From Luscinia megarhynchos (Eukaryota; Chordata; Aves; Passeriformes; Turdidae): a stretch of DNA of 64,000 bases. Of the stretch, positions 3,498 to 6,341 are shown piece after piece (positions within the stretch are counted from its first letter, which is position 1; each line of letters begins with the position of its first letter). The stretch spans positions 3,410,001-3,474,000 of the forward strand of contig JAPFBE010000032.1 of the NCBI GenBank assembly GCA_034336665.1, in the 5' to 3' direction. The position numbers and the translations under genes were made by a program. The notes beneath the pieces are model-generated. The model saw only the letters and a program-made list of their open reading frames with translations. It searched no databases and had not been told where the DNA came from.

Positions 3498-3846
3498 TGT
3501 GGAGACCCAGAAAGGTTTTCCCAACTAGGGAATGCAACCCCTGTTCTGTTCCCTCGGTCAACCACGTGCCCTCTCCCTGTTGGTCAGCTTTTCGGTCACT
3601 CCCACTCTGTTCCACTGTTGGCCCTCTGCCATGGCCCTTCTCTTGTGGCACCCTCGTGTCCCCTGATAATTGGTTTCTGATGTTTTCCCCGCCTGCACAT
3701 CCCATTTACAAAACCTGGACCCTCACAAGAGCCTTTGCCTTTGTTCCCCGAAACCTGGATCTATGCGTGGCTGAAATAAACATCTTTGTAAAACCCTGCA
3801 AAGGCCTTTCCTGCTCATTCACCCCAAGCAACATCTAAATGCAACA
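3498..3846 (+). repeat. 5' LTR of the cold-shock element
   Basis: The direct partner of 5993-6341, with equal length and TG...CA ends. An AATAAA hexamer in GCTGAAATAAACATC near 3775 is a likely poly(A) signal. The preceding base context (GGGCTG) does not match the base context after the 3' LTR, so no target duplication is seen. Confidence 0.85.
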
Positions 3847-3848
3847 AG

Positions 3849-3866
3849 TGGCGCCCAAACAGGGAC
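3849..3866 (+). promoter_or_regulatory. Primer-binding site, tRNA-Lys3-like
   Basis: The 18 bases TGGCGCCCAAACAGGGAC start two bases after the LTR end. From memory this differs from the canonical tRNA-Lys3 complement at one position. Lys3 primers are typical of betaretroviruses and lentiviruses, so this supports a class II-type origin for the replication signals. Confidence 0.8.
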
Positions 3867-3918
3867 TTTTTTTCGTGAATGCATTTGCAAAAACCAGCCT
3901 GAGACTGTTTTTTGATCT

Positions 3919-4267
3919 TACTCTGGTGAGTTTGAAACTCTGCAGCACTCTTTGCTTTTTTTTCTTTTGCTCTCATGTGCTGGGAAGAAACTTGGGGTGA
4001 AAATGCCAGTAAGATACATCTGCTCACAGCAGTAAATTTACCTTCAATTTAAAAACATTCTTCGTCACACCAATTTTCATTTTTTAAAGGGGGATTTGAA
4101 GCTTTTAGTTCGCTGGATGTGTGAAAATTATCCTGACATTTCACAAAAATAATTTCTAAATAATAACTTTTTAAATGAGGCTGCGGGCAAATTGCAAAGT
4201 GAAGACTTTCCAGTAGTAAAAACTCTACGTTTGTTTATTTTAATTAGTTTAGGCATTCAGCTTTCTA
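3919..4267 (+). promoter_or_regulatory. Leader with likely splice donor and acceptor
   Basis: A good donor-like sequence, CTG followed by GTGAGT, has its GT at 3925-3926. A pyrimidine- and T-rich tract ending in AG (about 4228-4260, TTTAATTAG then GCATTCAG) lies just before the reading frame, with a branch-like CTGAC near 4134. Splicing between them would place the cold-shock frame near the 5' end of a short mRNA. This is read from consensus only; transcripts are not available. Confidence 0.4.
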
Positions 4268-4363
4268 ATGAATGTTCAGAAAATACTGAACCCCAGACAG
4301 CCCCTCTCCTGTTGCAAGAAAAGTTTACTTTTTCACGTTCTTCCCTCCCCCCTGCTGCACAAA

Positions 4364-5608
4364 ATGGCGGTGATCGCGTGGTGGGATGCACAGGGTCCCC
4401 CTCCTCTGCCCCTCTCTGAGTCACGCCCCTCCTCTCCTTTTCGGGACCCTGCCCCCAAGGACACCCTCCCCCCCAAGCAGCCTTGCAAAGCAGCCGCTGC
4501 GACAGAGACCCCGCAGCCATCCCCCCGCCACCGCCGCCCGGGTCAACCTGGAGCCAGAAGCAGCAGTCTGGCCTCAGAAGTTCTGCGCCAAAAGCCACGC
4601 CCCCACCAGCAGTGCACCGCATCGCCCGCACGCCCACCACGCTGCCCTCTCGCCTGTGCCTCCGAAAAGGAGAGCAGAAAAGCAGCCCGCCATGGGCTGC
4701 CCGCTCGCCGCCTGCGCACCCCGCCCCGTGAGCCTCCTGGCCGCTGCATAGCCCCAGCACAGTGCCGCTGCAAGCCACCTGCCTGCCGCGGAGCCCCACG
4801 AAGCCAGCGCCGCTGGCGCGCACCACACCCCTCAAGCCTTGCTGCTGCCAGCCCACAACAAAAACAGCCCTGCCAACATCAGCACGTCCAGAAACACAGC
4901 CACAAACACAAATTCACCAGCAAAAATAAAAACATCATTGCTAAAAAAGTTTTAGGAACTGTCAAATGGTTCAATGTAAAAAACAAACACGGATTTATCA
5001 CCCGAAATGATACCAAAGGAGATGTGTTTGTCCATCAAACTGCAATCAAGAAAAATAGCCCTAAAAAATGTCTCCGCAGTTTAGGAGATAAAGCATTGGT
5101 GAAATTTGTTATAGTACAAGGAAAAAGGGGCCTCCAGGCAGCAAATGCTATCGGACCTAATAAATCTCCAGTGAAAGGAAGCATCTGTGCACCAAACTGC
5201 CGTTACTTTTCAGCTACTAAAAAACATTGTTCTTTACACAACAACCAAAGCCAACAGCCTTCAAGTTACAGCAGCAACCCAAAAGTAAAGACGGCTCAAC
5301 ACGCTAATCAGCTGTTCAGGAGCCAAAAGTCTATTCCTCCATTTGCAAAACCTGCCAAAAAAATAACTGCCTTCCCTCAAACCCTATTGTTTCCCTATTT
5401 CCCTCCCTCTTTTCCCTTTATCCATCCACAAAATAAGTCCTTTCAAAATTTTCCCAAATCAAATTACCCATTCTTTATGTTCTCTCAAATTCCTAACCCC
5501 CTTTTCCCTCCACAATCCTCCTCCCACTGCCATGCTTTACCCTACCTTTGCTCCCCAGCTGCCAATCTGTTTTTCCAAAGTTCCCTTTTAATACAAAGCG
5601 GGGGATGA
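4364..5608 (+). CDS. YBX-like cold-shock-domain protein captured in an LTR element
   Basis: The frame is open from 4268 to the stop at 5606-5608. I prefer the second ATG, at 4364, because its context is strong (A at -3, G at +4) while the ATG at 4268 is weak; this gives 414 residues. Numbering from that start, residues 1-190 are proline-, arginine- and alanine-rich and come from a GC-rich block. Residues about 194-271 form a cold-shock domain of the Y-box type: LGTVKWFNV, an RNP1-like segment KHGFI, an intact RNP2 segment VFVHQTAI, and a C-terminal GPNKSPVKGS. Such domains bind single-stranded nucleic acid; YBX proteins package mRNA. The tail (about 272-414) is rich in Ser, Gln, Pro and Phe and lacks the alternating basic/acidic islands of host YBX proteins. 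The RNP1 aromatic before Gly-Phe is His. The frame is intact although the LTRs have diverged by ~3%. The domain family is near certain; function in the element is unknown. Confidence 0.82.
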   Translation: MAVIAWWDAQGPPPLPLSESRPSSPFRDPAPKDTLPPKQPCKAAAATETPQPSPRHRRPGQPGARSSSLASEVLRQKPRPHQQCTASPARPPRCPLACASEKESRKAARHGLPARRLRTPPREPPGRCIAPAQCRCKPPACRGAPRSQRRWRAPHPSSLAAASPQQKQPCQHQHVQKHSHKHKFTSKNKNIIAKKVLGTVKWFNVKNKHGFITRNDTKGDVFVHQTAIKKNSPKKCLRSLGDKALVKFVIVQGKRGLQAANAIGPNKSPVKGSICAPNCRYFSATKKHCSLHNNQSQQPSSYSSNPKVKTAQHANQLFRSQKSIPPFAKPAKKITAFPQTLLFPYFPPSFPFIHPQNKSFQNFPKSNYPFFMFSQIPNPLFPPQSSSHCHALPYLCSPAANLFFQSSLLIQSGG

Positions 5609-5992
5609 TATGGGGAGGAAAGAGGAGAAAGGAAAAAAAAAATCTCCCAAGGTAACAATCTTTGTTTTTATTTCAAAATCAATGATTTCTGTTTAGAGTT
5701 TCAACAGGTACAGCAGCCCCATTCTGCTAACTACATTGCTAACAGCCACCAGAGTACCAGTCCATGCTGAAGAATCCCCTTCCTGACTCAGTTTCCTGAC
5801 AAACCATGCTGAGAAAACTTCACATCTCTTCCTACCAGTTTTAATATGCTTCAAAAATCCCTTTTTACACTAACGACTCGAGAAATAGCTTGCATTTTAA
5901 AAATTGTTTTATTTTGTACTTTTTAGTTACCTCAACCATTTAAATTTAATATCCTTAAAAAAACCTTCTTAATTAATAAAGAAAAGGAGAAT
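5609..5992 (+). other. 3' untranslated region and polypurine tract
   Basis: Directly after the stop comes a long purine run (about 5609-5642), then AT-rich sequence without a reading frame. A second purine tract (AAAGAAAAGGAGAAT, about 5978-5992) abuts the 3' LTR and is the likely plus-strand primer site. The first purine run could be a duplicate tract or part of the captured mRNA. Confidence 0.55.
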
Positions 5993-6341
5993 TGTGGAGA
6001 CCCAGAAAGGTTTTCCCAACTAGGGAATGCAACCCCTGTTCTGTTCCCTCGGTCAACCATGTGCCCTCTCCCTGTTGGTCAGCCTTTCGGTCACTCCCAC
6101 TCTGTTCCACTGTTGGCCCTCTGCCCTGGCTCTTCCCTTGTGGCACCCTCGTGTCCCCTGATAATTGGTTTCTGATGTTTTCCCCGCCTGCTCACCCCAT
6201 GTACAAAACCTGGACCCTCACAAGAGCCTTTGCCTTTGTTCCCTGAAACCTGGATCTATGCGTGGCTGAAATAAACATCTCTGTAAAACCCTGCAAAGGC
6301 CTTTCCTGCTCATTCACCCCAAGCAACATCCAAATGCAACA
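5993..6341 (+). repeat. 3' LTR of the cold-shock element
   Basis: The partner of 3498-3846. It ends GCAACA, and the next bases (CCCTCACGG) already belong to a sat-190 monomer with the alternate right half. Confidence 0.85.

Follow-up and report, generated by a model that had tools for sequence, protein, structure and literature searches.

What is the gene of a cellular cold-shock protein doing inside a retroelement, and does the element profit from it? The question is raised by a 64,000-nucleotide stretch of the Luscinia megarhynchos genome (assembly GCA_034336665.1, contig JAPFBE010000032.1, positions 3,410,001 to 3,474,000 of the forward strand; hereafter the window), in which an element with paired long terminal repeats (LTRs) at positions 3498-6341 carries a long open frame with a cold-shock domain (CSD) of the Y-box (YBX) type. 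The comparisons below make it highly probable, in our judgement, that the element belongs to a family of retroviral origin that captured a host gene. With moderate confidence, we read the whole as a non-autonomous family derived from a class II-like retrovirus, in which the captured YBX1 protein helps the element's own RNA.

An original prediction, made from the letters alone, described an LTR element with 349-bp LTRs, a Lys3-like primer site and a purine tract, and all of these parts were found in the window copy (Table 1). The two LTRs differ at 11 positions. The predicted open frame also holds: Pfam identifies the CSD (PF00313, E 1e-18), which has the YBX-type RNP motifs of the Y-box family, and the frame recurs elsewhere in the genome. 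The solved structures nearest to the window frame are those of YBX1 (E 5e-33) and YBX2 (E 1e-32). The arrangement, with an intronless cellular coding sequence between viral ends, is that of a defective retrovirus that has transduced a host gene. The window copy lacks a target-site duplication (GGGCTG vs CCCTCA) and may therefore be rearranged.

The genome searched comprises 1.09 Gb (1093 Mb) in 1235 contigs. Among the best 94 of 396 candidates, which were scored, the window frame matches at least 102 stretches at E <= 0.001, equivalent to at least 74 distinct places on 31 contigs. The CSD part is present in all of the 30 best loci, with LTR sequence upstream in 27 and downstream in 29, and in all of 20 further places, with LTR sequence upstream in 10 and downstream in 17. 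LTR sequence thus flanks the CSD frame region on both sides in 36 of the 50 fetched places. AATAAA is present in 74 and ATTGG in 73 of the 77 long LTR matches of these copies. Inspection of four other LTR sites gave three solo LTRs and a 3' fragment; exact 6-bp duplications bound two of the solo LTRs, and in the third 5 of the 6 bases agree. The LTR search scored the best 40 of 547 candidates and gave at least 41 matches, so that LTR numbers are lower bounds.

In the 32 copies with two long LTRs, the interiors are shorter than 3 kb and mostly occupied by parts that the copies share. Exact 6-bp target duplications bound 20 of the 32, although two of these 20 are probably one duplicated insertion. 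The LTRs of a copy differ by a median Kimura two-parameter (K2P) distance of 0.031, and in two copies the pairs are identical, over 328 and 335 sites. At 2 to 3 substitutions per site per billion years, the avian rate, the median copy would be several million years old and the youngest no older than one to two million years. A DNA tree of 49 of the 50 rows is a ladder in which the window copy is nested, as one evolving source lineage would give. Taken with the selection on the CSD described below, the number of places, the duplications and the identical LTRs bear out the proposal that the derivative has multiplied.

Two copies, L004 and L044, agree in the eight bases that flank them on either side and are sisters in both the DNA and the CSD trees. 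They are probably a single insertion duplicated with its surroundings, and L044 was left out of the nonsynonymous/synonymous (N/S), residue, splice-site and frame-intactness counts because its flanks are those of L004. The copies are unevenly spread: contigs C33, C34 and C35 hold 21 of the 74 places in 10.4 of the 1093 Mb, and are perhaps the W chromosome or another repeat-rich refuge.

The case that the original prediction named as fatal to it, a single copy whose cold-shock part is a recent processed pseudogene, was checked and does not apply; at least 74 places, with LTR-flanked copies among them, rule out a lone processed pseudogene. The broader version, a YBX processed pseudogene lying inside a known LTR element, agrees with the lack of introns in the CSD, but the same parts recur in the same order across many copies, exact duplications bound 20 of 32, and both the CSD tree and the pattern of selection contradict it. 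We regard this explanation as extremely improbable.

From which gene, then, was the CSD taken? In a CSD tree of 78 rows, built on about 100 columns and with a bootstrap that is not fully settled, 48 element copies and seven songbird proteins (from Lamprotornis, Mimus, Zonotrichia (two), Junco, Serinus and Taeniopygia) group in a single clade (support 100/100), which is placed next to YBX1 and apart from YBX2 and YBX3. The CSD trees keep 48 of the 50 copies (L043 and L047 were dropped, as were six YBX rows without the search motif). With a swallow YBX1 protein as the query, host YBX1 is found in pieces over about 7 kb (C24:2426546-2433808, 81 to 98 percent) and its matches are broken inside the CSD by introns, whereas those of the element run continuously through the domain. 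Because the host gene is split by introns, the copies are intronless and all fall in one clade, we conclude that the captured molecule was a YBX1 mRNA, apparently taken up in a single event; the predicted retroviral capture of a YBX-family mRNA can thus be narrowed to this gene. An origin from YBX2 or YBX3 was considered and rejected: the residues APN behind the CSD are YBX2-like, but the trees put the clade with YBX1. A second gene that matches YBX1 in pieces (C3:7417271-7428057) is probably host YBX3.

Little of YBX1 beyond the CSD is still recognizable. In a comparison of the family profile with YBX1, 98 columns align, covering the CSD and its immediate flanks; the Ala/Pro-rich N-terminus is absent, and the long C-terminal tail, in which basic and acidic clusters alternate, is matched over 39 columns at a probability of 13 percent, too little to recognize it in the family. 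The resemblance of the C-terminal extension to YBX1 is limited to its first residues. Loss or rewriting of the tail probably followed the capture, since one place (C34:2110799) still aligns unbroken to YBX1 residues 46-209. Outside the CSD, a five-row alignment shows residues that the element has in common with the Lamprotornis and Zonotrichia proteins.

Within the clade, a tight subclade (100/99) comprises the CSD proteins P0130, P0141, P0008, P0154 and P0179 of Junco, Serinus, Zonotrichia and Taeniopygia; it may represent an old copy that was taken over as a gene of the host. These annotated proteins would also suit a different history, in which some copies became bird genes under host selection and the family is their debris. 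We consider this very unlikely: for the Taeniopygia protein, the sole one tested, the best match in this genome reaches 51 percent, too low for a close counterpart, and shared variants are scattered over many LTR-flanked copies with duplications of their own.

Has the protein been maintained while the family spread? Counts of dN/dS and of insertions and deletions (indels) used copies L001-L030 only, and copies L051-L064 enter none of the selection tests. The comparison of dN/dS between copies that the original prediction called for gave 0.33 for the CSD in its frame vs 1.09 and 0.77 in the other frames. This is the lowest of 24 region-by-frame values, the remainder lying between 0.44 and 1.09. 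Two untranslated regions gave 0.51 to 0.87, for which reason values near 0.6 are uninformative. A second comparison separated variants shared by three or more copies, attributed to source lineages, from private ones that arose after insertion, with stops counted as N. For the CSD in 49 copies, N/S is 54/39 among shared and 97/20 among private variants (odds ratio (OR) 0.29, p 6.4e-5). The OR stays between 0.21 and 0.29 at thresholds of 2, 3, 5 and 8 copies and is 0.32 (p 0.0056) for transitions alone, and the other two frames of the CSD give no signal (OR 0.77 to 2.14). Indels in the CSD and the C-terminal extension are private or common to at most two of the 30 copies, and widely shared ones occur in the 5' leader, the linker and the 3' untranslated region (UTR). 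Between 43 and 45 of 47 copies retain the RNA-contact residues of YB-1. Upstream of about position 4846, the frame shows no frame-specific conservation. These patterns indicate that the CSD was very probably under frame-specific purifying selection while the family spread.

The nature of the virus can be judged from what remains in front of the captured gene. The original prediction had found no gag, pol or env. For pol this stands, as neither the open-frame listing nor Pfam gives a pol frame in the window element; for gag it does not, as a remnant of the matrix (MA) region was identified at 4003-4290. At the protein level, the remnant is 74% identical to the corresponding MA piece in another copy, and the leader is open from an ATG in some copies and interrupted by two stops (TAA) in the window copy. 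The MA piece has no Pfam match, no match among 70 protein candidates at E 1e-3, and PDB matches of E 0.39 or worse. The remnant does resemble, at 34-40 percent identity, the gag start of five endogenous retroviruses (ERVs) of the same genome (E 5e-6 to 9e-4 genome-wide; 1e-10 to 3e-8 against seven fetched stretches). One of these (L053) encodes Gag_p24, zf-CCHC, RVT_1 and rve domains and another (L057) Gag_p24, RVP and RVT_1; for L055, Pfam gave no match in the piece tested. It is possible that these ERVs (L053-L057) are kin of the helper.

The sequence TGGCGCCCGAACAGGGAC, the exact Lys3 site, stands at the primer site of 8 of the 32 listed copies (three of the 32 rows are partial), and the site of the window copy differs from it by one base. 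At least two kinds of primer site occur among copies, the Lys3 site and TGGCGCTCCGAACCGGGAC, which suggests that the tRNA primer was switched within the family. Kinship of MA with gag, a Lys-type primer site and 6-bp duplications together point to a class II-like (betaretrovirus-like) parent. Of these traits of class II (betaretrovirus-like, ERVK) retroviruses, the gag kinship is present, and the primer site and the duplication are found in 8 and 20 of 32 copies, respectively, with one mismatch and no duplication in the window copy. A gag-pro-pol region of its own, which the class would also have, is lacking. Thus, judged from its sequence, the element is a non-autonomous derivative in which gag is nearly all lost and pol and env are wholly lost. 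In 30 copies, the MA region has 20 stops in its own frame vs 272 and 221 in the other frames, and no widely shared indel; perhaps it was once coding and is now kept as RNA.

How could a gene so placed be expressed? The CSD frame is in phase back to about position 4850 in 37 of 43 copies and has no start codon there, while conserved donor-like sites and in-phase AGs lie upstream (Table 1). Thus, we infer a spliced message that joins the gag start codon to the CSD. We rate this message at a little less than an even chance, because the selection signal in front of the CSD is no stronger than that of non-coding controls. The spliced RNA would begin with the gag start (ATG CCA) and pass from the donor at 4009 to the acceptor at 4866 or 4881, and its product would be a CSD protein of about 245 residues. 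The second-exon frame (225 codons or more) is kept in 15 of 49 copies, 11 of which also keep the start and the donor. Start codons near 4268 and 4364 that are in frame with the CSD are present in 6 of 30 copies (L001, L007, L013, L017, L019 and L025). A conserved gag-CSD fusion, suggested by one copy in which a single frame of 545 aa extends from the start of gag across the CSD, was rejected on account of the random phase and of an MA region without frame-specific selection.

We also infer that the element moves in trans by way of a helper, which fits interiors of less than 3 kb without gag-pol. Full-length element RNA would be packaged and copied by the gag-pol of other ERVs, and the retained leader and 5' gag (packaging region) would aid packaging. 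The CSD protein would bind RNA through its intact CSD surface and might raise the yield of the element's own RNA, by way of stability, particle loading or reverse transcription. Depletion of YB-1 is reported to lower replication of human immunodeficiency virus (HIV), and YB-1 to support viral RNA metabolism (PMC6040738). Because of this support for HIV, the protein would most simply serve to help the element's own RNA, although we hold a benefit of this kind only tentatively. More tentative again is the full picture that these steps would compose, of a satellite retrovirus of songbirds that has been long-lived on one captured RNA-packaging protein, spliced from the gag start and giving its own RNA an advantage in helper particles; the element would then carry an RNA chaperone of its own.

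The main rival accepts the same element and has the protein act on the host. A truncated YBX1, a CSD lacking the long basic/acidic tail, would compete with cellular YBX1 or redirect it, and the element and its helper would thereby be less subject to silencing, translation control or restriction. It would be in keeping with a CSD surface that is kept while the YBX1 tail no longer aligns in the family profile, with selection that is demonstrated for the CSD only, and with the inverted CCAAT (ATTGG) that 73 of 77 LTRs contain. Over the window element as a whole, however, ATTGG is about as frequent as in shuffles (3 vs 2.6), and copies with broken frames still moved, an objection that applies equally to help for the element's own RNA. 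We consider an action on host YBX1 rather unlikely.

Several results weigh against the reading that we prefer, in which the captured protein aids the RNA of a class II-derived family. The exon-2 frame is broken in 34 of 49 copies, among them both copies with identical LTRs, and a copy can therefore move without making the protein. The same counts would suit a CSD that is a passenger, carried along by a family that spread through its LTRs and packaging region, with open frames merely reflecting the recency of copies. Such a passenger would not, however, show frame-specific purifying selection between source lineages that is absent in private variants and in the other frames, nor would widely shared indels be expected to spare the CSD and C-terminal extension while affecting the 5' leader, the linker and the 3' UTR. 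We therefore think a passenger improbable, and return to the helpful protein and its difficulties.

Some of these concern selection. The tests treat sites as independent. The signals of the C-terminal extension (OR 0.63, p 0.027) and of the segment in front of the CSD (OR 0.42, p 0.034; p 0.087 when shortened) do not exceed those of controls in the same test, namely a wrong frame of MA (OR 0.47, p 0.018) and two frames of the 3' UTR (OR 0.55, p 0.013; OR 0.63, p 0.047). Coding selection outside the CSD is thus not established, as gene-less controls match it. The MA region has a dN/dS of 0.74 in its frame vs 0.79 and 0.44, and its phase relative to the CSD is random: 12 of 34 copies are in phase, and 9 and 13 have the other two phases. 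Others concern the proposed splicing and its product: the pyrimidine tracts of the acceptors are weak, AGs in the wrong phase are equally kept (4898 in 46 of 47 copies, 4792 in 34 of 37), and no spliced retrocopy was found in the few deletion copies inspected, of which L034 keeps the donor GT and the others have no clean junction. CATC, a motif of the YB-1 type, is not clearly enriched (14 vs 10.6 +- 2.9). Finally, none of the 132 scored candidates of the same genome is a close gag-pol relative, so the parental virus may be extinct in this genome or may have been missed.

Among the closest parallels, acute transforming retroviruses carry gag-onc fusions or spliced onc genes, are defective and depend on helpers. 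The element resembles them in its defective genome, in a cellular mRNA placed behind a 5' piece of gag and in its need for a helper; unlike them, it is a germline family with a laddered tree and recent insertions. Rous sarcoma virus splices subgenomic messages from a donor just inside gag and borrows the gag start, much as proposed here for the donor just inside gag. ENS-1/ERNI of chicken is a bird ERV known for one expressed gene. It is described as a protein of retroviral origin (PMC3362752, PMC3958431), which sets it apart from a captured YBX1.

Crocodilian ERVs captured KIT-ligand and nectin3 and are reported to have several copies, open frames and evidence of purifying selection (PMC4299795). 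They share with this element an ERV-captured host mRNA, multiple copies and purifying selection. The KIT-ligand capture is reported to have cost no ERV domain and that of nectin3 to have come at the expense of env (PMC4299795), whereas here only a gag MA remnant is left; the gene captured here also differs in encoding an intracellular RNA-binding protein. Bird YBX1 itself is like the element protein in CSD sequence and RNA-contact residues, and unlike the element, which is intronless, flanked by LTRs, without the Ala/Pro-rich start and with a tail that cannot be aligned in the family profile. A search covering part of the literature brought up no report of a YBX or cold-shock gene within an LTR element. 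That ERVs capture host mRNAs is already known; to our knowledge, the genes captured by retroviruses are mostly growth or surface genes.

In this family, a captured RNA-binding protein is the one gene with a record of selection, accompanied by recent insertions. It offers a natural experiment on the role of YBX1 for retroviral RNA and on the persistence of gene-poor retroelements beside helpers. Related proteins occur in six songbird genera (presumably five families), so that these ideas are testable in public transcriptomes and genomes.

Table 1. Parts of the window element, with positions in the window.
Feature	Position	Strand	Remarks
5' LTR	3498..3846	+	TGTG...AACA; AATAAA at 3775; ATTGG (inverted CCAAT) at 3669
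Primer-binding site, Lys3-like, one mismatch	3849..3866	+	reads TGGCGCCCAAACAGGGAC
Splice-donor-like GTGAGT, conserved, 5' of gag start	3926..3931	+	GTRAG in 32/33 copies; putative splice use
Decayed gag matrix (MA) remnant, gag start codon at 4003, two stops in window copy	4003..4290	+	similar to MA of another copy and of ERVs
Donor-like site right behind ATG CCA, phase 0	4009..4014	+	GTRAG in 28/33 copies; putative use
Variable GC-rich linker, open in window copy, without frame-specific selection; putative intron	4291..4845	+	
Stop-to-stop open frame, 451 aa	4253..5608	+	putative coding exon ~4868-5608
Acceptor-like AG, conserved, phase 0 to CSD frame	4866..4867	+	43/45 copies; putative use
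Acceptor-like AG, conserved, phase 0 to CSD frame	4881..4882	+	45/45 copies; putative use
Cold-shock domain (CSD), YBX1 type	4955..5149	+	frame residues 235-299; PF00313 E 1e-18
C-terminal extension, P/S/F/N-rich	5150..5608	+	coding status from open frame and absence of widely shared indels
3' untranslated region	5609..5977	+	common to most copies
Polypurine tract	5978..5992	+	
3' LTR	5993..6341	+	

The surroundings of the element are rich in repeats. Arrays of a 191-bp satellite (the length of a zebra-finch-type satellite) lie at window positions 6395-11020 and 17496-23237, with matches of 73 percent, and the first of them, beginning beside the LTR, forms the 3' flank of the element. A tandem array with a 437-bp unit and 4.7 copies occupies positions 24641-26683. 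The scan gave no RNA families at gathering scores and no tRNA genes. Three frames look gag-like by eye, with no Pfam gag match (28213-29058 on the + strand, 14864-15562 and 39951-40556 on the - strand). Also present in the window are pieces of other ERVs, encoding RNase H and integrase (30827-32572, + strand), reverse transcriptase (13442-14050, - strand) and integrase (57521-58360, - strand).

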